From Methanocella paludicola SANAE (GTDB taxonomy: Archaea > Halobacteriota > Methanocellia > Methanocellales > Methanocellaceae), in the NCBI RefSeq assembly GCF_000011005.1, contig NC_013665.1, forward strand, positions 620,001-684,000: a stretch of 64,000 bases of DNA. The letters are read 5' to 3'. Made by a program: the position numbers and the translations under genes. Below, piece after piece: positions 37,079 through 48,553 of this stretch; position 1 is the first letter of the stretch; every line of letters begins with the position of its first letter. The notes beneath the pieces are model-generated. The model was not told where the DNA came from and did no database searches. It was given only the letters and a program-made list of their open reading frames with translations.

Positions 37079-37798
37079 TTAGAATATTGTTGCAGCATAA
37101 GCGACCAGCAAGTATCCGCCATAAAGGATGAACCCGATACCCAGCGCTTTTCTCACGTAGGGCTCGACCTTGACGACCTTTGAGACGTAGCTTTTTGCGA
37201 ACGACGAGCTGATGCCCAGGAAGAGCGCGAAAACGAGGACAGGGAGCCCGGTGCCTATGCCGAACAATAATGGGTAGCTGATGCCCAGCACGTTAGAGCT
37301 CAAGGTCAGCGGTATGAGCAGCCCGAAGAACATTACGGCCGTATAGGGGCAGAACGCGAGCGCGAATATGGCGCCAAGGCCGAAAGCGCCGAGTGCGCCC
37401 ATGCTGGAAAGCTTCAGGCCGTATTTGGCCTTGAGGCCGTCGCCCACGGAGATGTTCGGCTTTACGATCTCGAGCATGACAAGCCCGACGACAAGCAGCA
37501 GAGGCCCCAGGATGACCTTATCGTAGTCCTGCAGCAGCGGGGCGCTATCCAGGATGGCCGAGCTGAACATGAGCGCCAGCAATCCCAGGATAGTATAGGT
37601 GAGAGCCCTTCCAGCCGTATACAGGATGCCGGCTGACACGGTACCCCGGGCGTCGGTGAACTTCGAAGATACGTAGGCTATGGCCGCGATGTTCGCCGAT
37701 AGCGGGCACGGGCCGATGGCCGTGACCAGCCCTATGGCGAACGCATAAAGTAGCGGGATCTCCTTAAAAGAGGCGAGGATGGATAAGTCCATGGTCAC
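37079..37798 (-). CDS. ArsG-like (CcdA/DsbD-fold) efflux permease
   Basis: This 239-residue membrane protein has about six helices in two repeats. Each repeat carries a Cys-Pro element, IGPCPLSANIAAI and AFCPYTAVMFFG, as in the CcdA/DsbD group. The pairing with an ArsF-like thioredoxin-fold protein immediately upstream (ATGA overlap) matches the ArsEFG type that handles trivalent aromatic arsenicals. A role as transmembrane thiol-redox carrier is the alternative. Its gene closes the left end of the metalloid island. Confidence 0.75.
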   Translation of the reverse strand: MTMDLSILASFKEIPLLYAFAIGLVTAIGPCPLSANIAAIAYVSSKFTDARGTVSAGILYTAGRALTYTILGLLALMFSSAILDSAPLLQDYDKVILGPLLLVVGLVMLEIVKPNISVGDGLKAKYGLKLSSMGALGAFGLGAIFALAFCPYTAVMFFGLLIPLTLSSNVLGISYPLLFGIGTGLPVLVFALFLGISSSFAKSYVSKVVKVEPYVRKALGIGFILYGGYLLVAYAATIF

Positions 37799-38247
37799 CT
37801 GCCCAGTTCCTTGTTGAGGACGTCCCGGAGGTAGTTCATGTAGGCGTTCTTGTCCCTCACGTACGCCCAGATCTCGGGTAAGTCCTTTACAGTCTCCTGC
37901 CCGCCGCGATACTCCACGAGCTTCAGGCCCTGCATATTGGCGTTATACTTTTTTGCCATCTCGGTGTCTTTCTGATAGTCGATGCTCCGGATGGATAGCA
38001 CTCCGGACTTCACTTCGTCCGGGAAGTACGCGTTCAGCGTGTCGCGGGCATACTGCTCGGCGTTATTGCAGGATATGCATCGCTCGCTCCTGTGGAAATA
38101 TAAAAGCGCTATCTTATCCGGCGCACCTGATGCGGCCGATGTCCCGGATACCGTGTCGCTGCTGATCGCCGGCAGAACGGACGCGAGGAGCAGCAGGGCC
38201 AGTACGGGTACTAATGCAAGTAATGATAGTTTTTTAAGTGTAATCAT
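37795..38247 (-). CDS. ArsF-like thioredoxin-fold protein, secreted or membrane-tethered
   Basis: This 150-residue protein has an N-terminal signal/anchor helix (residues 8-28) and a thioredoxin-like domain with the active-site-like segment FHRSERCISCNNAEQYA, where C58 and C61 form a CxxC. It resembles ArsF-family subunits described next to ArsG permeases. The partner permease overlaps its stop. An AGGGGATGAG site precedes the ATG. An A/T dyad TTTAT-N6-ATAAA at about 38268-38283 lies in the promoter and resembles the other island operators in geometry. Confidence 0.72.
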   Translation of the reverse strand: MITLKKLSLLALVPVLALLLLASVLPAISSDTVSGTSAASGAPDKIALLYFHRSERCISCNNAEQYARDTLNAYFPDEVKSGVLSIRSIDYQKDTEMAKKYNANMQGLKLVEYRGGQETVKDLPEIWAYVRDKNAYMNYLRDVLNKELGR

Positions 38248-38363
38248 CTCATCCCCTGATGAGCTTTTTATTTATGAATTAATAAATAGTTTCTAGCAAA
38301 AATACGATTAGCCAGCTATAATTCAGGGCAATCAGCAACGCCGATAGCCTGACTATCCTGCGA

Positions 38364-38714
38364 TTAGAGCTTTTGGGACTTATTGATGAAGTCGTGGACG
38401 GCCTTACCTTTCGGCGTCAATGAGTAAATTAAAAAATTACCGTCTTTACGATAGGAGATTATGTCATTATCCTTCAGGTTCTTCAGGTGGTACGACAGGG
38501 CGGAGTACTGCAGGCCGGTCATGTCCACAAGCACGCAGACACAGAGCTCCTTGACGCCCAGCGCCTCGATGATCCTGACCCGGGTCGGGTCGGCCAGCGC
38601 TTTGAACAGGTCCGATGTGGGCCTGTAATCATTTGTTTTAATGCTTTTAAGCCCTTTTTTTGTTTTTTCGCTTAGCGGGTATGGGCTGATCTCGAGCTCC
38701 TGCAGTTCGTTCAT
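38364..38714 (-). CDS. ArsR family regulator 1
   Basis: This 116-residue winged-helix repressor has SDLFKALADPTRVRIIEAL, the metalloid-sensing ELCVCVL (C58, C60) on the alpha-3 helix, and the recognition helix QYSALSYHLKNLK. In ArsR proteins arsenite binding to these Cys releases DNA. It follows the redox and Zn-ribbon genes and precedes arsF/arsG in the direction of transcription, so it could control them. Its own TATA (TTTTTATAAC) lies about 50 bases upstream. Confidence 0.9.
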   Translation of the reverse strand: MNELQELEISPYPLSEKTKKGLKSIKTNDYRPTSDLFKALADPTRVRIIEALGVKELCVCVLVDMTGLQYSALSYHLKNLKDNDIISYRKDGNFLIYSLTPKGKAVHDFINKSQKL

Positions 38715-38768
38715 ATTGCCACCATTCTCCTCAAGGTTTTTCTTATGTCCGTAAAGTTATAAAAAGTT

Positions 38769-38936
38769 TCAAGGGCACTTCTCACACTCGAAGCACATGG
38801 TCTTGCCCTTGATGTCCGTGAAGAATTCCTTGCCGCACTTCGCGCATACGACCTTCCTGAAGCCCAGGTCCTTATACGGGGTGCCCATCGCAAGGTCGGA
38901 CATGTTAATTCCGCATGAACATCCTTCTTTTGCCAT
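38769..38936 (-). CDS. Small Cys-rich zinc-ribbon protein
   Basis: This 55-residue protein has eight Cys: an N-terminal CSC, then CAKCGKEFF and a terminal CFECEKC. The arrangement fits a zinc ribbon or metal-binding chaperone. It sits five bases after the small redox protein gene and upstream of arsR1, so it is part of the same island transcript. ATG 38936 is chosen over an upstream in-frame codon that would overlap the neighbour. No family name is assigned. Confidence 0.65.
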   Translation of the reverse strand: MAKEGCSCGINMSDLAMGTPYKDLGFRKVVCAKCGKEFFTDIKGKTMCFECEKCP

Positions 38937-38941
38937 GGTGA

Positions 38942-39181
38942 TCACATTTTTGCCTTTATCCACTTCTTGATCTCGTCGTTGGAGGGCACGCGCCCCATGG
39001 ACTTGACCTCGCCTTCAACGGCGAATCCGGGAGTGGCGAGGATGCCCGCCTCGACGATCTGGTTGATGTCATTGACTTTTACGACTTCGGCGTTGACGCC
39101 CATCTCTTTGATGGCCTGCTTTGCGGCCTTCTCCAGCATGTTGCACTTGGCACATCCAGTTCCGTATATCTGGACCTTCAT
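38942..39181 (-). CDS. Small redox-active disulfide (thioredoxin-like) protein
   Basis: This 79-residue glutaredoxin-like mini-thioredoxin has active site TGCAKC (C10, C13) and the cis-Pro loop LATPGFAV. Such proteins are common in methanogens as thiol reductants. It lies directly after the ArsP-like permease gene and may reduce arsenicals or keep island proteins reduced. A likely electron donor is the reductase at 41431. AAAGGTGAACAC precedes the start. Confidence 0.88.
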   Translation of the reverse strand: MKVQIYGTGCAKCNMLEKAAKQAIKEMGVNAEVVKVNDINQIVEAGILATPGFAVEGEVKSMGRVPSNDEIKKWIKAKM

Positions 39182-39217: not shown

Positions 39218-40297
39218 TTAAACTATTGCTCCGAATACCAGGCCGCAGATGACGGCCATCAGGATGACCAGGCCTATGTACGTGAGCCCCTTTTTCTTTC
39301 CCAAGATGTTGAGTATGACCAGCATGCTCGGCAGGCTGAGCGCCGGGCCGGACAGGAGCATGGCAAGCGCCGGGCCCTTGCCCATTCCCTGAGCCATGAG
39401 TAATCCTACGATGGGGACTTCCGTCAGGGTGGAGAAGTACATGAATGCGGCAAATACGGACGCCACGCTGACCGATAAAAGGCTATTGCCCCCCAGGAAG
39501 GCCTGGACATAGCTCACAGGGATCAAGTAAATGATGATCGACCCGAAGAACACGCCTCCAATGAGCAGCGGAAAGATCTTTTTCGTGAGGAACCAGGTCT
39601 CGTTCATCCACTGCGTCAGCTCGTCCTTGTTATACCATCTGTATGAGGTATACGCGGCCAGCAGCACCAGCAGGGCCAGCACCGGCCCCTTGACCAGCCA
39701 GTCCAGCGCCCAGCCCCCGAACACCAGGATGACAACGAGGAGCAGGAACGTGATCGGCGTGCGGTATTTGTATCCCGTTTCGCCCCCGTCCTGGGAGGTA
39801 ACGATGAACGGCGCGGCCTTCTGGTTCTTCCTTTCCTCGTTCATGGACTTCTGGTACAGGAAAGCCATGATAGCTCCGATGACGATGGAAAGGGCGACCG
39901 CGCAGAATGCACGGGCAGCGCCGATGTCGAGTCCCAGCTTCTGGGCCGAATAGACGATGGCCAGCACATTGATGGCCGGCGCCGAGAAGAGGAACGCCGT
40001 GGCGGGTCCTATGCCCGCGCCCCGCTTGTATATGCCCGTGAACAGCGGCAGCACCGTGCAGCTGCAAACGGCCAGAAGTACGCCGCTCACCGCCGCGACG
40101 CCGTAGGACATGACCTTGTTGGCGTCGGGGCCGAGGAACTTCAGGACTGATTCCTTTGAGAATAGGGCGGCGATGGCGCCCGCGAGGAAGAACGCGGGGA
40201 TCAGGCAGAAGAGCACATGTAATGAGATGTACTCGAAGACCGCATCGATCCCCACGTTCACGAGTGTAATACCTAGATCCGTCAGGCTCTCGATCAT
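39218..40297 (-). CDS. ArsP-type permease (DUF318), copy 1
   Basis: This 359-residue protein has two blocks of about four helices separated by a cytoplasmic loop near residues 165-190. The family Cys motif AVCSCTVLPLFTGI lies in the first block, with SAPAINVLAIVY after it and a matching SGPALSLPSMLVI in the second. Characterised members export methylarsenite, roxarsone(III), or Cu/Zn. ATG 40297 with GTGGTAAG upstream is preferred over an in-frame TTG at 40312. Its promoter region contains the island palindromes. Confidence 0.82.
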   Translation of the reverse strand: MIESLTDLGITLVNVGIDAVFEYISLHVLFCLIPAFFLAGAIAALFSKESVLKFLGPDANKVMSYGVAAVSGVLLAVCSCTVLPLFTGIYKRGAGIGPATAFLFSAPAINVLAIVYSAQKLGLDIGAARAFCAVALSIVIGAIMAFLYQKSMNEERKNQKAAPFIVTSQDGGETGYKYRTPITFLLLVVILVFGGWALDWLVKGPVLALLVLLAAYTSYRWYNKDELTQWMNETWFLTKKIFPLLIGGVFFGSIIIYLIPVSYVQAFLGGNSLLSVSVASVFAAFMYFSTLTEVPIVGLLMAQGMGKGPALAMLLSGPALSLPSMLVILNILGKKKGLTYIGLVILMAVICGLVFGAIV

Positions 40298-40305
40298 CTT
40301 ACCAC

Positions 40306-40325
40306 ATTTCAATTATCATTGAAAT
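40306..40325. promoter_or_regulatory. Island operator 1 (ATTTCAA-N6-TTGAAAT)
   Basis: A 7-bp inverted repeat with six-base spacer (TTATCA) lies at the expected transcript start of the ArsP-like permease gene. The TATA element TTATATAC is at about 40331-40338 on the minus strand. ArsR-type repressors bind dyads of this size. Confidence 0.65.
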
Positions 40326-40342
40326 ATGATGTATATAAGCTT

Positions 40343-40360
40343 TTTCAAATATAGTTGAAA
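40343..40360. promoter_or_regulatory. Island operator 2 (TTTCAA-N6-TTGAAA)
   Basis: This second dyad has the same half-sites and spacer length (ATATAG), placed between the divergent permease and MtrA-like genes. A TATA-like AAATGATAAATATTATG follows for the plus-strand gene, so one repressor could control both directions. Confidence 0.65.
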
Positions 40361-40447: not shown

Positions 40448-41023
40448 ATGACAATGATACCGATCGGAGACAAAATAGAAAAGACCTATAAGTATGGCGA
40501 TGCCTCGTCGCCCGTGGCGGTCGCCACCCTGGCCAGCGACTATGAGAAGTTCGACTTAAAGGGCTATGCCATCCTGGGCAGTGTCTTTACGGAGAACTTC
40601 GGCGTCCAGATGGCCATCGCGAACATGCTGAAGGACCAGAACATCGGATACCTGATCCTGTGCGGGCAGGAGAGTGCCCACCTGTCGGGCCATGCGTTCG
40701 TAACCCTGCACGAGAACGGCGTCGTCCAAATAGGCACCAGCCGGCGTATCATCGGGTGTAAAAGCCCGCTGCCGTTCATCGACGAGATACCAATGGGGGC
40801 TATCGATGAGTACCAGGAGAACATTAAGCTCATAGACATGATAGGCATTGAGGACACGAAGCTCATTCAGGCGAAGATCGACGAGTGTACTGAAGAATCT
40901 AAAAAGAGGTCATATCGAAGGAAACCATTCGACGCTGGCATGCCGGAGATCGGCGCCTATTCCTGGAAGAAGTACTCAGCCATCGTCGAGATCGAGATGA
41001 AGAACCGGCTTAATCGAAAATGA
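40448..41023 (+). CDS. Soluble MtrA-like corrinoid-binding protein
   Basis: This 191-residue protein matches the cobamide-binding domain of subunit A of the methyl-tetrahydromethanopterin:coenzyme M methyltransferase. It shows AILGSVFTENFGVQMAIANML, LILCGQESAHLSGHAF with a His at the position of the cobalt ligand, and RRIIGCKSPLPFI. The C-terminal membrane helix of true MtrA is missing, as in MtxA-type homologues. No other mtr genes are nearby. It lies first in a plus-strand run of island genes, divergent from the ArsP-like permease. Confidence 0.85.
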   Translation: MTMIPIGDKIEKTYKYGDASSPVAVATLASDYEKFDLKGYAILGSVFTENFGVQMAIANMLKDQNIGYLILCGQESAHLSGHAFVTLHENGVVQIGTSRRIIGCKSPLPFIDEIPMGAIDEYQENIKLIDMIGIEDTKLIQAKIDECTEESKKRSYRRKPFDAGMPEIGAYSWKKYSAIVEIEMKNRLNRK

Positions 41024-41042: not shown

Positions 41043-41399
41043 ATGGGAACTAATTCGAGTGATGGCACTATCGCTCTGTTGACGTGCTCCAGCCCTTCCA
41101 ATGCCGGCCGGATCGCCATCCGGGCCGCTGTTACGCTGTTACAATTTAACCCGGGCCGCATGGAATGGGCCCAGTTGAAGCAGCCCATTGAGGACATAGA
41201 GGAGGTGGCAAGGTCGGCCGATAAGATCCTTATCATCGATGGCTGCCCTACGTGCTGTGTCGAGAAAAAGCTGGGTGAAATGGGCATGAAGGCCGACGGC
41301 CACGTCATCGTTACCGACCTGCTCGGGATCACCAAGAGCATGGCCGATATTAAGGGCGAAGAGGTCCGGAAAGTCATCGAGGCGATAGACAGGCTATAG
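41043..41399 (+). CDS. DGC-domain putative zinc-binding protein
   Basis: This 118-residue protein carries TCSSPSNAGRIAIRAA and the DGC motif IIDGCPTCCVEKKL (D66-G67-C68, C71, C72). DGC proteins are predicted to bind zinc or another soft metal and are often found beside redox and metal genes. It starts 20 bases after the MtrA-like gene, and GGTAGATGAG precedes it. A metallochaperone or sensor function in the island is plausible but unproven. Confidence 0.78.
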   Translation: MGTNSSDGTIALLTCSSPSNAGRIAIRAAVTLLQFNPGRMEWAQLKQPIEDIEEVARSADKILIIDGCPTCCVEKKLGEMGMKADGHVIVTDLLGITKSMADIKGEEVRKVIEAIDRL

Positions 41400-41430: not shown

Positions 41431-42363
41431 ATGAGTGATAAAATATACGACATAGCGATCATAGGTGCCGGCCCTGCGGGCCTGACGAGCGCCCTGTACT
41501 GTGGCAGGGCGAACCTCTCGACGATCGTATTCGGGAATGTTTATGAATCGCAGATCGCTAAAGCAGGCGATATAAGGAACTATCCCGGCATCGACTCCAT
41601 ACAGGGCGTAGACCTCATTGAAAAGTTCGAGATCCAGGCCGAACACTACAATATCACTCATGTACCCTCAAACGTGACCCGGGCTATACTCGGCGAGCTT
41701 TTTACGCTGTATTCTGAACTCGACGAATTTAAGTGCAGGAGCATAATAGTCGCTACAGGCTCGAAGCACCGGGAGCTCAACATACCGGGCGAGAAAGAGC
41801 TCGCATATAAGGGCGTATCATATTGCTCGATTTGTGACGGTAACCTGTACAAGGGTAAGGTCGTGGCGCTGGTGGGCAGCGGCGATCAGGCCGCGAAGGC
41901 GGCATTATACCTGGCGGGGCTCTGCAAGGAAGTCCTCGTCCTCACGGATAAGTCGGATATGGACAGCCCCCAGTACATGGAGCAGGTAAAGTCTAATACG
42001 GCCATCCGGGTAATGGGCAACGCTCGGGTGGTCGCCATCGAAGGCCACGAGGCCGTGGAACGCATAGGGTTCAGAATAAACGAAGGCCCCGAAGAAGTGG
42101 CGGGCGTGGAGGCCGTATTCATCGAGGGGGGCATACCGAACACGCTGCTTGCGCTCGAGCTGGGCCTGGAGCTGGACGATAAAGGCAACATAAGCGTCAG
42201 CCGGCCCGACCAGTCGACGAACGTGTCGGGCGTGTTCGCCGCGGGCGACGTTACGAGCGGCATACACCAGGTATCCAAGGCCGTGGGCGATGGCGCCAGC
42301 GCCGCTATGAGCGCCATATTGTACGTGAAAAAGCAAAAGAAAGGCGATAGTAAATTAACCTGA
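41431..42363 (+). CDS. Thioredoxin-reductase-like flavoprotein
   Basis: This 310-residue protein has FAD-binding GAGPAGLTSALY, redox-active C132-SIC-C135 and the second FAD motif SGVFAAGDVTSG. The nucleotide domain has GSGDQAAKAALYL, but the basic HRRxxxR segment that binds the NADPH 2'-phosphate in classical enzymes is replaced by TDKSDMDSPQ. The electron donor may therefore be ferredoxin or F420H2, as known for methanogen homologues. It probably reduces the small redox protein at 38942. Confidence 0.88.
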   Translation: MSDKIYDIAIIGAGPAGLTSALYCGRANLSTIVFGNVYESQIAKAGDIRNYPGIDSIQGVDLIEKFEIQAEHYNITHVPSNVTRAILGELFTLYSELDEFKCRSIIVATGSKHRELNIPGEKELAYKGVSYCSICDGNLYKGKVVALVGSGDQAAKAALYLAGLCKEVLVLTDKSDMDSPQYMEQVKSNTAIRVMGNARVVAIEGHEAVERIGFRINEGPEEVAGVEAVFIEGGIPNTLLALELGLELDDKGNISVSRPDQSTNVSGVFAAGDVTSGIHQVSKAVGDGASAAMSAILYVKKQKKGDSKLT

Positions 42364-42388: not shown

Positions 42389-42874
42389 ATGAAGGATGAG
42401 TATCGTTCATGCAATCCGGGCATTTCACTCGAGGGCCCCCTATCGGAAGAAGAACGTAAGACCCTGGAGCGTAAGCTGGTCAAGACCCTCAACTGGATCG
42501 GCGTGAAAATACCGCAGGAAGTTGAGCTCAAAGGCAAAAAGGTGCCACTTAAGGAAGTGATGTGGGACCTGATGAGCAAAAAAGAATGTTTTACTGAGGA
42601 AGAAAAGAAAATACTTTACGACCTGGAGTACGCCCTGGAAAGGAAGCTCAAAGAGGATATCAAGGACGTAGGCACCGACGAGGACAAGGCCGAGGTCCTC
42701 GGCCATTATTGCGAGGCGATGGGGCTCATGCGGGCCATCGTGTCGCTGAAGGCCATGGTCGAGACGGACAGGTGCCACGATGACAGGCAAAAATTGTCCA
42801 GGCGAATTACGGACAGAAGGAAGGTAGAGGCCGAGAACTGGCTTGGATTCCTGAAGAGGATAGACATTTACTGA
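42389..42874 (+). CDS. DUF5788-like archaeal protein
   Basis: This 161-residue charged, helical protein has SEEERKTLERKLVKTLNWIGVKIPQEVEL and FTEEEKKILYDLEYALERK, which resemble the DUF5788 family of archaea. There is no membrane helix and no obvious catalytic motif. It lies in the plus-strand island run between the reductase and the second ArsP-like permease. Its role is unknown, and it may be a bystander. Confidence 0.65.
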   Translation: MKDEYRSCNPGISLEGPLSEEERKTLERKLVKTLNWIGVKIPQEVELKGKKVPLKEVMWDLMSKKECFTEEEKKILYDLEYALERKLKEDIKDVGTDEDKAEVLGHYCEAMGLMRAIVSLKAMVETDRCHDDRQKLSRRITDRRKVEAENWLGFLKRIDIY

Positions 42875-42910: not shown

Positions 42911-42926
42911 TTCAAATATATTTGAA
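42911..42926. promoter_or_regulatory. Island operator 3 (perfect 16-bp palindrome)
   Basis: TTCAAATATATTTGAA is a perfect palindrome with the same half-sites and spacing as operators 1 and 2. It covers the TATA region of the second permease gene, whose ATG is 27 bases further on, so bound repressor would block promoter recognition. Confidence 0.68.
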
Positions 42927-42952: not shown

Positions 42953-43930
42953 ATGTTAAAAGAGCCCGTCGATTACTTTACCTACACGGTGCTTGGCCTG
43001 AGCCCCGGCTCCCAGATGGGCAGCGCGCTCAACTTCTTCATTTACGATACCATCAAAATATTTCTCTTATTGTCCTTCATGATCTTCGCCATCTCCTACA
43101 TACGGAGCTACATCCCTCCGCATAAAGTCAAGGAATGGCTGAGCCATATGAACGAGTACGTGGGGAACGTGCTCGCCGCTCTCTTCGGGATCGTCACGCC
43201 GTTCTGCTCGTGCTCTGCAGTGCCCCTTTTCATCGGGTTCGTGGAATCCGGCATACCACTGGGAGTCACGTTCTCGTTCCTGATCGCCTCGCCAATGATC
43301 AATGAGATCGCGGTGATCATGCTCCTGGGGCTGTTCGGCTGGGAGGTCATGGCGCTCTACATCGGCACAGGCCTCGCCATCGCCATCGTTGCCGGCATCG
43401 TCATCGGTCGGCTCAAGCTCGAAGGAGAGGTCGAAGGCTACGTCTATGACGTCCTGAATAAAAAGAAAGGCATGGCTGCCTGCGCGTGCGGGCCGGTGGA
43501 GATCGAAGAGCCCACACAAAAGGAGCGCCTGGTCTATGCGAAGGACTACGTCGTCGAGATACTGAAGAAGGTCTGGCTATACGTGGTCATCGCCATCGGC
43601 ATCGGCGCCTTCATCCACGGCTACGTGCCGACCGATTTCCTGGCCCAGTATGCGGGGAAGGATAACCCTCTGGGCGTGCTGATCGCAGTTCTCATCGGCG
43701 TGCCTCTCTATTCCAATGCCGCCGGTGTGCTGCCCCTGGTGGCCGTACTGATGGAGAAGGGCGTGCCCCTGGGCACGTCGCTGGCTTTCATGATGGCCGT
43801 CACGGCGCTATCATTACCCGAGATGATCATCCTGAGAAAGGTGCTCAAGCCGAAGCTGCTGGCGATATTCATCGGTATTCTCGCCACATCCATTATCACC
43901 GTGGGGTACCTCTTCAATGCTGTATTATAA
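42953..43930 (+). CDS. ArsP-type permease (DUF318), copy 2
   Basis: This 325-residue permease has the motif TPFCSCSAVPLFIGF, ASPMINEIAVIML in the first half, and GVPLYSNAAGVLPL with TALSLPEMIIL in the second. A cytoplasmic loop contains a CACG element. It is only distantly similar to copy 1 and carries the ArsP-like Cys cluster more clearly, so methylarsenite export is a good candidate role. Its short leader and operator 3 suggest control by metalloid-responsive repression. Confidence 0.85.
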   Translation: MLKEPVDYFTYTVLGLSPGSQMGSALNFFIYDTIKIFLLLSFMIFAISYIRSYIPPHKVKEWLSHMNEYVGNVLAALFGIVTPFCSCSAVPLFIGFVESGIPLGVTFSFLIASPMINEIAVIMLLGLFGWEVMALYIGTGLAIAIVAGIVIGRLKLEGEVEGYVYDVLNKKKGMAACACGPVEIEEPTQKERLVYAKDYVVEILKKVWLYVVIAIGIGAFIHGYVPTDFLAQYAGKDNPLGVLIAVLIGVPLYSNAAGVLPLVAVLMEKGVPLGTSLAFMMAVTALSLPEMIILRKVLKPKLLAIFIGILATSIITVGYLFNAVL

Positions 43931-44001: not shown

Positions 44002-45066
44002 ATGGCAGAAACTGCAAAAGCGAGACTGTCTTTCCTTGATAAGTATCTGACATTATGGATATTCCTGGCGATGGCGCTGGGCGTCGGCCTGGGGTACTTT
44101 TACCCTGCGCTCGCCAACTTCATCAATAGCCTGTCTATTGGTACGACATCGATCCCGATAGCCCTCGGCCTGATTGTCATGATGTACCCGCCCCTCGCCC
44201 GGGTCAGGTACGAGGAGATCGGCAAGGTGTTCAGGAATGTGAAGGTCATGGCCCTGTCATTACTCCAGAATTGGATCATAGGGCCCATACTCATGTTCAT
44301 CCTGGCAATATTGCTCCTTAGAAATTACCCGGAGTACGCGGCCGGGCTCATTCTCATCGGTATCGCAAGGTGTATCGCCATGGTCATCGTCTGGAACCGT
44401 CTCGCCTGTGGCGATTCCGAGTATGCCGCCGCCCTGGTGGCCCTGAATTCTATCTTCCAGGTGATTTTCTACTCCATATATGCGTACATATTCATCACCG
44501 TATTGCCGTCCTGGCTCGGCATGCAAAGCATGGTCGTGAATATCACGATATGGCAAGTGGCGGAATCGGTGTTGATATATCTGGGCTTACCCTTTGCCGC
44601 AGCGGTCCTGACGAGGTTCGTCCTGCGCCCGCGCCTGGGCAGCGACTGGTATGACAACAAGTTCATACCCGCGATCAGCCCCGTCACGCTGCTCGCGCTG
44701 CTGTTCACCATCGTGGTGATGTTCTCCCTGAAGGGCCAGTATATCGTATCGCAGCCCTTCGACGTGGTCATTATCGCCATACCGCTGATCATCTACTTCG
44801 TCATCATGTTCGTGGTCTCGTTCTTCATATCCCGGTACATGGAAGTGAACTACGAGCAGTCGTGCACGCTGTCGTTCACGGCGGCTAGTAATAATTTCGA
44901 GCTGGCCATCGCCGTTGCAGTGGGCGTGTTCGGCATCGACTCCGGCCAGGCTTTCGCGGCCGTGATCGGGCCGCTTATCGAGGTGCCAGTGATGATCGCG
45001 CTGGTGAACATCGCCCTGAGGTGGAGAGAGAAATACTTCACCCCGAAGACGTGGAAAGGGTCATAA
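44002..45066 (+). CDS. acr3: ACR3-type arsenite efflux transporter
   Basis: This 354-residue protein has ten predicted transmembrane helices. The ACR3 hallmark [17 protein letters not shown] contains the essential Cys (C124), and the later helix GPLIEVPVM contains the conserved Glu. It exports arsenite driven by the proton gradient. It is separated from the second permease by 71 bases with a TTGAAATAG half-site, so it may be read from operator 3 or its own promoter. Confidence 0.94.
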
Positions 45067-47737: not shown

Positions 47738-48553
47738 TTACTCCTTCCTCGCGGTTATTTTGACGGTCGCCACCTTCGACAGGGCCTTGCTGCCGGTAAG
47801 GGTCGTGATGCCGGTGCCGCATCCGCAGCCGCTGCCGCAGCAGCCCGTATCGCCGAGCATGAGGGCAAGCTCCTCGCTGGTATAGGTGTGCCTGCTGTTT
47901 ATCTCTATGTCCTTGAACCCTGCAGCCTTCATCTTCCCTACGTACTCATCCAGCGGTATGGCGCCGCCGATACAGCTCGCCCAGGACTTGAACATCTCCT
48001 GCTCATCCGCTTTCACGTCTTCTGTCAGCACCATGTCCGATACGGCCAGCTTACCGCCCGGCCTGAGCACCCTGAATGCCTCCATGAACGCCTTTTCCTT
48101 ATCCGGGCTCAGGTTGATAACGCAGTTGCTGATGACCACGTCCACGGTATTCGACTCGACGGGCATGCACTCGATCTCGCCCAGCCGGAACTCTACATTG
48201 GTGGCATTCATCTCTTTCGCGGCCTTTCGGGCCCTCCATATCATCTCGGGCGTCGCATCGACCCCTATGGCCTTGCCCTTCGAACCTACGGCCTGCGCCG
48301 ACAGGAAGACGTCGATGCCCCCGCCGCTGCCCAGGTCGAGCACGGTCTGGCCAGGCTTCAGGTCGGCGATAGCCGTCGGGTTGCCGCAGCCGGCGCTGAC
48401 CTCTAATACCTGGTCCGGTAATTTTTCTACAGCCTCGCCCGAATAACCTATCCGGGACGCATAGTCCTTCCCGCTGCTCCCGGACGTTGCCAGTCCCGAG
48501 TACCTCTCCTTCACGGCCTTCCTGACCGATAGCTCGTCAATCTTACTGCTCAT
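47738..48553 (-). CDS. arsM: Arsenite S-adenosylmethionine methyltransferase
   Basis: This 271-residue class I methyltransferase has the SAM motif VLDLGSGGGIDV. The three Cys that bind trivalent arsenic in ArsM enzymes are C56 (VSAGCGNPTA), C144 (ISNCVINLSPD) and C194 (ASCIGGAIP). The C-terminus adds a Cys-rich GCCGSGCGCG segment typical of prokaryotic forms. It makes mono- to trimethylated arsenicals, which the ArsP-type permeases could export. The region before the start has overlapping A/T palindromes around ATATCGATAT. Confidence 0.93.
   Translation of the reverse strand: MSSKIDELSVRKAVKERYSGLATSGSSGKDYASRIGYSGEAVEKLPDQVLEVSAGCGNPTAIADLKPGQTVLDLGSGGGIDVFLSAQAVGSKGKAIGVDATPEMIWRARKAAKEMNATNVEFRLGEIECMPVESNTVDVVISNCVINLSPDKEKAFMEAFRVLRPGGKLAVSDMVLTEDVKADEQEMFKSWASCIGGAIPLDEYVGKMKAAGFKDIEINSRHTYTSEELALMLGDTGCCGSGCGCGTGITTLTGSKALSKVATVKITARKE

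Follow-up and report, generated by a model that had tools for sequence, protein, structure and literature searches.

A soluble MtrA-like protein with a putative corrinoid site recurs in arsenic islands of Methanocella and Methanosarcinaceae

We found that the rice-paddy methanogen Methanocella paludicola carries, at the head of an operon in an arsenic (ars) island, a gene for a soluble protein of the MtrA family, and that this protein belongs to a separate branch of the family which recurs in ars islands of Methanocella, Methanosarcina, Methanolobus and relatives. Judging from sequence and gene order, it is this recurring branch that appears to be new. Soluble MtrA homologues and the incidental methylation of metalloids with methylcobalamin were already known, and we found nothing in the open-access literature that links an MtrA relative or an MtrA-like protein to arsenic or to ars islands.

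Gene order and operators of the island

The window (the whole stretch of DNA that was analysed) comprises 64,000 nucleotides of M. paludicola SANAE, whose genome is a single contig of 2,957,635 bp. The following features of the island were identified, given in window coordinates:

37079-37798, minus strand: ArsG-family permease (NF040495, 239 bits, cut-off 200)
37795-38247, minus strand: ArsF-family protein (NF040494, 85 bits, cut-off 60)
38364-38714, minus strand: ArsR-type metalloregulator that may read the operators (HTH_5; NF033788, 80.6 bits)
38942-39181, minus strand: small thioredoxin of the MTH895/ArsE family (TIGR00412, 103 bits, cut-off 62)
39218-40312, minus strand: ArsP-type permease, first copy, divergent from the MtrA-like gene (Pfam ArsP_1, 255 bits)
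40308-40323, no strand: operator palindrome TTCAATTATCATTGAA, zero-mismatch site
40344-40359, no strand: operator palindrome TTCAAATATAGTTGAA, zero-mismatch site
40448-41023, plus strand: MtrA-like soluble protein with a putative corrinoid site (191 aa), encoded at the head of the rightward operon
41043-41399, plus strand: DGC-domain protein, 20 bp downstream of the MtrA-like gene (Pfam DGC, 77.6 bits)
41431-42363, plus strand: thioredoxin-reductase-like flavoprotein, 310 aa (TIGR01292, 260 bits, below the cut-off of 343)
42389-42874, plus strand: DUF5788 protein, 161 aa (Pfam PF19101, 38 bits)
42911-42926, no strand: operator palindrome TTCAAATATATTTGAA, before the second arsP, zero-mismatch site
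42953-43930, plus strand: ArsP-type permease, second copy (Pfam ArsP_1, 278 bits)
44002-45066, plus strand: Acr3 arsenite efflux protein (TIGR00832, 454 bits, cut-off 283)
47738-48553, minus strand: ArsM arsenite methyltransferase, in the same island, outside the operon (NF008823, 272 bits, cut-off 263)

The rightward operon runs from the MtrA-like gene through the genes for the DGC, thioredoxin-reductase-like and DUF5788 proteins, with gaps of about 20, 30 and 25 bp, to the second arsP and acr3. On the leftward side the order is arsP, the MTH895/ArsE thioredoxin, a small Cys-rich protein, arsR, arsF and arsG, so that homologues of ArsE, ArsF and ArsG (37079-39181) are found beside two ArsP paralogues; the arsEFG system acts on aromatic organoarsenicals. 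The DGC-domain protein (41043-41399) has a confidently predicted fold (pLDDT 93), and neither the sequence search nor the fold search gave an informative solved relative for it. PADLOC returned no match that would link the locus to phage defence.

The perfect palindrome TTCAANTATNNTTGAA occurs three times in the 2.96-Mb genome, always in the arsenic island. Two copies are located between the divergent arsP and the MtrA-like gene, in agreement with the sequence-only reading that the two genes share an operator, and the third precedes the second arsP. On these grounds co-regulation of the MtrA-like gene with the rest of the island is well supported, and the ArsR-type protein is the putative reader of the operators. 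The same spaced palindrome is present 26 bp upstream of the orthologue in Methanocella sp. PtaU1.Bin125, again with no mismatch. A TTCAA-N6-TTGAA site close upstream and free of mismatches was found only in these two Methanocella genomes, so regulation in the other genera would differ.

Family, fold and predicted cobalt site

The open reading frame at 40448-41023 is genuine and encodes 191 aa from ATG. MtrA (PF04208) is the only Pfam domain of the protein (122.3 bits, E = 2e-35, gathering cut-off 25), and the scan found no SAM-dependent methyltransferase domain. The protein scores 243 bits with the NCBIfam subfamily model NF002126, above its cut-off of 161, and 108 bits with the mtrA equivalog TIGR01111, well below the 249 required. 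Its nearest solved relatives are 5LAA (1.5e-29), 8Q3V and 5L8X, which represent a cytoplasmic MtrA homologue and canonical MtrA. Foldseek retrieved these structures again from the AlphaFold model (mean pLDDT 81), which shows the Rossmann-like MtrA fold when compared with 5LAA (E = 7e-12, TM 0.77-0.78 over the target).

The cobalt ligand of MtrA is His84; it forms a hydrogen bond with Glu54, and Asn55 touches the corrinoid (PMC4915002). His78 of the MtrA-like protein aligns with the cobalt ligand His84, and Glu49-Asn50 with Glu54-Asn55; both the MtrA-like identity and the retained cobalt-site histidine noted from the sequence alone were thereby borne out. The protein is predicted to bind a cobamide in the base-off/His-on state via His78 and Glu49. 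Additional cysteines that might bind arsenic were not seen in the alignments, where the conserved Cys positions are common to other MtrA proteins.

The protein has the Pfam domain and the cobalt ligand in common with the canonical MtrA of the Mtr complex but differs from it in several features. Canonical MtrA has a C-terminal linker and a membrane helix, whereas the MtrA-like protein has neither; its Kyte-Doolittle hydropathy, averaged over 19 residues, peaks at 1.05 and that of the canonical MtrA of the same genome at 2.70, which agrees with the missing helix reported earlier. Canonical mtrA belongs to the mtr operon, while the MtrA-like gene stands outside any mtr operon. The absence of Mtr partners, likewise claimed earlier, also held: the genome contains a single canonical mtrA (C1:528214) and a single mtrH (C1:529426), both at a distance of about 130 kb, and there is no mtr gene nearby. 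A recent duplication of the genome's own mtrA was ruled out, as the two proteins are only 38% identical and fall in separate clades.

Segments A79-A83 and A112-A116 of MtrA contact MtrH and MtrCDE in models of the Mtr complex (PMC10998594), and it is these docking segments that are altered. The xGH loop of canonical MtrA is replaced by QES-AH, with the Gly position missing throughout the clade, and the GAIPF(Y/F)xEN meander by KSPLPFIDE. The cobalt site is kept, but the docking face has probably changed. Because the one-residue deletion affects a segment by which MtrA touches MtrH and MtrCDE in these models, it is doubtful that the MtrA-like protein is charged by the only MtrH of the genome.

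A separate clade of the MtrA family

Relatives were sought in 394 genomes of the phylum and then in 112 Methanosarcinaceae and 4 Methanocellaceae. In the tree, the MtrA-like proteins of Methanocellaceae and Methanosarcinaceae form one side of a branch with 100/100 support and are separate from canonical MtrA as well as from other cytoplasmic MtrA proteins. A model of the clade separates them likewise: full-length or long members score at least about 240 bits and other MtrA homologues at most 156, with fragments of members in between. Carriers include Methanocella sp. PtaU1.Bin125, Methanosarcina sp. UBA5, Methanolobus halotolerans and Methanolobus sp. M17C-73-03.

In all full-length members compared, the loop before the histidine is one residue shorter (canonical xGH, clade xH) and there is an added C-terminal stretch, predicted to be helical, with a conserved W-x-K-Y. 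Across the clade the cobalt-ligand histidine is invariant in an alignment of 16 sequences, and the cobalt-site Glu is replaced by Ala in just three closely related intact members.

Cytoplasmic MtrA homologues of methanogens are reported to be 60-97% identical to methanogen MtrA (PMC4915002). With 191 aa and no membrane segment, the MtrA-like protein is soluble and shorter than 215 aa as these homologues are, but its identity of 38% to the genome's own MtrA is far below their range. The closest structural counterpart is the cytoplasmic homologue of Methanothermus fervidus (5LAA, with cobalamin), which is likewise soluble and unanchored, has the same fold and the same His-Glu-Asn set at the cobalt site (PMC4915002), and is about 35% identical over the aligned part. 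The MtrA-like protein differs from it in the residue missing before the histidine, in the extra conserved C-terminal helix and in its ars context. The clade also points to a possible task for some of the cytoplasmic MtrA homologues.

Recurrence in arsenic islands

The gene neighbourhoods of 38 clade members outside the window were read and labelled by hand as ars or non-ars. By these labels, about 20 of the 38 are housed in ars islands. In the Methanosarcinaceae an acr3 gene lies within 15 kb in 15/38 places (0.3 expected) and a DGC gene within 1.5 kb in 12/38 (0.06 expected), whereas the 62 further MtrA homologues from Methanosarcinaceae include none near acr3 and none near DGC. Chance placement in ars islands can thus be ruled out. 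The Fisher test for the clade versus other MtrA gave 6e-8 for acr3 and 3e-6 for DGC, values that are indicative only, as the genomes are related. On the tree, the label changes between ars and non-ars four to five times, fewer than in every shuffle, related genomes not being independent. ArsP, a small thioredoxin and DGC are the recurring neighbours, often together with a YfcE-like phosphoesterase.

The gene's suspected link to arsenic metabolism therefore stands as regards island membership, which is seen in the shared operators, the position at the operon head and the recurrence in several genera; it is strongly supported as guilt by association. The suggested comparison with islands elsewhere gave a mixed answer, with about 20 ars islands carrying the gene and two other Methanocellaceae islands possessing ArsR, thioredoxin, ArsP, phosphoesterase and Acr3 without it. 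In PtaU1.Bin125 the gene directly precedes the phosphoesterase-Acr3 pair. Broken or fragmentary copies were found in ars islands at four loci (L157, L158, L159, L166), and such copies carry in-frame stops in genome G437 and are split around an ORF of 537 aa in G330. Missing from two sister islands and damaged in several more, the MtrA-like gene is an optional, dispensable part of the island.

Since about 18 of the 38 other members are located outside ars islands, some of them near a Cu-type ATPase, arsenic may not be the sole role of the clade. At locus L071 (5914-9073) a heavy-metal (Cu-type) P-ATPase is encoded directly upstream of a non-ars member on the same strand, and non-ars members near such an ATPase were also seen at L063, L065 and L077. 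As a further observation, ars islands of Methanosarcinaceae repeatedly encode a hydantoinase_A-like protein of 642-659 aa and a DUF6951 protein (L074:11900-13879, L069, L072, L147, L151, L166).

Relation to ArsM

ArsM is a gene product of the same island and methylates arsenite, but it is a SAM-dependent methyltransferase unrelated to the MtrA-like protein. In some Methanosarcina the two genes adjoin: arsM ends 84 bp upstream of the MtrA-like gene on the same strand at locus L070, and this order is repeated at L143 and L072. At 1e-40 no arsM match was obtained in three genomes (G003, G176, G420) whose MtrA-like gene has an ars context, so ArsM cannot be the partner of the MtrA-like protein everywhere. 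Across genomes, arsM is present in 26/35 with and 25/45 without the MtrA-like gene (p = 0.10), which is no clear link, and dependence on ArsM is unsupported.

Possible function

The reading that we prefer, as possible rather than probable, is that of a soluble, cobamide-binding MtrA-family protein which carries methyl groups and has become an optional component of the metalloid island in Methanocellales and Methanosarcinales. A methyl-corrinoid account is the simplest because of the conserved cobalt site, the changed docking face and the home beside ArsP, ArsE/F/G and ArsM. A metalloid would release the ArsR-type repressor from the shared palindromes, and upon derepression the MtrA-like protein would be made together with ArsP, the ArsE-like thioredoxin, the DGC protein and the thioredoxin-reductase-like protein. 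The protein-bound corrinoid might then shuttle methyl groups between the C1 pool and a metalloid held by thiols, As(III) for example, with the DGC cysteines and the thioredoxin as candidates to present or reduce the metalloid and with ArsP exporting the product. The carrier would have lost those features of MtrA that tie it to the sodium pump, and its route would run alongside that of ArsM, given that arsM is missing from some genomes with the MtrA-like gene. Methyl transfer, its substrate and its direction are all putative here; we lean towards methylation, followed by reduction and export through ArsP, over demethylation of organoarsenicals. A dedicated methyltransferase partner was not found in the island.

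In a bolder form, which we consider unlikely, the ArsP-thioredoxin-DGC-MtrA module would be an ArsM-independent corrinoid system for the methylation or demethylation of arsenic, a metalloid counterpart of HgcA that is tied to the C1 pathway. HgcA, in mercury methylation, also passes a methyl group from a methyl-corrinoid to a thiophilic element, and is a membrane protein of a family other than that of the MtrA-like protein. The same kind of transfer is the chemistry proposed for the side reaction of MtaA, a protein unrelated to the MtrA-like protein and with a reaction described as incidental; metalloid methylation by methanogens runs through methylcobalamin (PMC13262295). In flooded rice soil methanogens contribute to both the methylation and the demethylation of arsenic, and the mechanism by which DMAs is demethylated has been described as unclear; one methanogen can partly demethylate DMAs(III), while M. 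mazei CZ1 does not demethylate DMAs (PMC10579292). The soluble MtrA clade in ars islands offers a concrete candidate for a corrinoid step in metalloid handling.

The kept MtrA fold and cobalt site together with the missing membrane anchor would also suit a protein that, under metalloid stress, accepts methyl groups from methyl-H4MPT and passes them on without the sodium-pumping Mtr complex, or that keeps the C1 pathway from losing methyl groups to arsenite. The occurrence of the gene without ArsM is in line with such a role, and the clade members near Cu-type ATPases would allow a general function in metal stress. Against it, the loop and meander that dock to MtrH and MtrCDE are altered clade-wide, and the island holds neither a second MtrH nor a CoM methyltransferase, the genome having one MtrH; we consider this explanation unlikely. 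Even with C1 protection as its only role, the clade would connect an MtrA relative to metal stress through its gene neighbourhood, and no precedent for this was found in the open-access literature. The changed loop and the new conserved C-terminal helix, suggestive of new protein contacts, the tight pairing with the DGC gene and the island's lack of a catalytic partner are what one would expect if no methyl chemistry took place at all and the protein stored or guarded cobamide, or bound a metalloid or a partner such as DGC as a sensor or chaperone. The set of cobalt ligands is nevertheless conserved throughout a divergent clade, which would be expected if the coordination of cobalt is important, and we hold this reading to be rather improbable.

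That the gene is a passenger, travelling with ars islands without any role in metalloid handling, would explain its absence from two sister islands and the broken copies in others. It is however the first gene of its operon, set among unique shared operators, and its association with the same partners is repeated in several genera, so that we hold a passenger to be quite improbable. Very unlikely in our estimation is a supply of methionine and SAM, by which the methyl group would be given to the core methionine synthase MesA/MesC and SAM would keep pace with ArsM and repair (PMC7857596, PMC11378808). MtrA is the predicted methyl donor of MesA in methanogens, including Methanocellales (PMC7857596), and arsM lies just upstream in some Methanosarcina; yet ars-context copies occur in genomes without arsM, the two genes show no clear link, and no methionine synthase was seen beside the MtrA-like gene. 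Our preferred reading remains that of a soluble methyl carrier.

MtrA domains beside other metal-stress genes

Spread of the MtrA-like gene on plasmids was not supported, the search having given only distant bacterial fusions. In these fusions of MtrA with PterinBD-DUF4346, from a Planococcus plasmid and from Paraburkholderia, an MtrA domain is likewise encoded beside metal-stress genes, and the Pfam scan for the DUF4346 part covered the Planococcus protein only. They differ from the MtrA-like protein in the fused pterin-binding domain, in their low identity to it (about 31-33%) and in a Cd/Zn-type instead of an ars setting. MtrA domains may have acquired roles in metal stress on more than one occasion. 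On Planococcus plasmid pA30H1 (L161:4345-8729) the fusion is found beside an ArsR/SmtB regulator, a cation transporter and a Cd/Zn-type P-ATPase, and on Paraburkholderia PPGU19_p2 (L162:6791-8819) it diverges from a CadR/PbrR-like MerR regulator that scores just under the cut-off.
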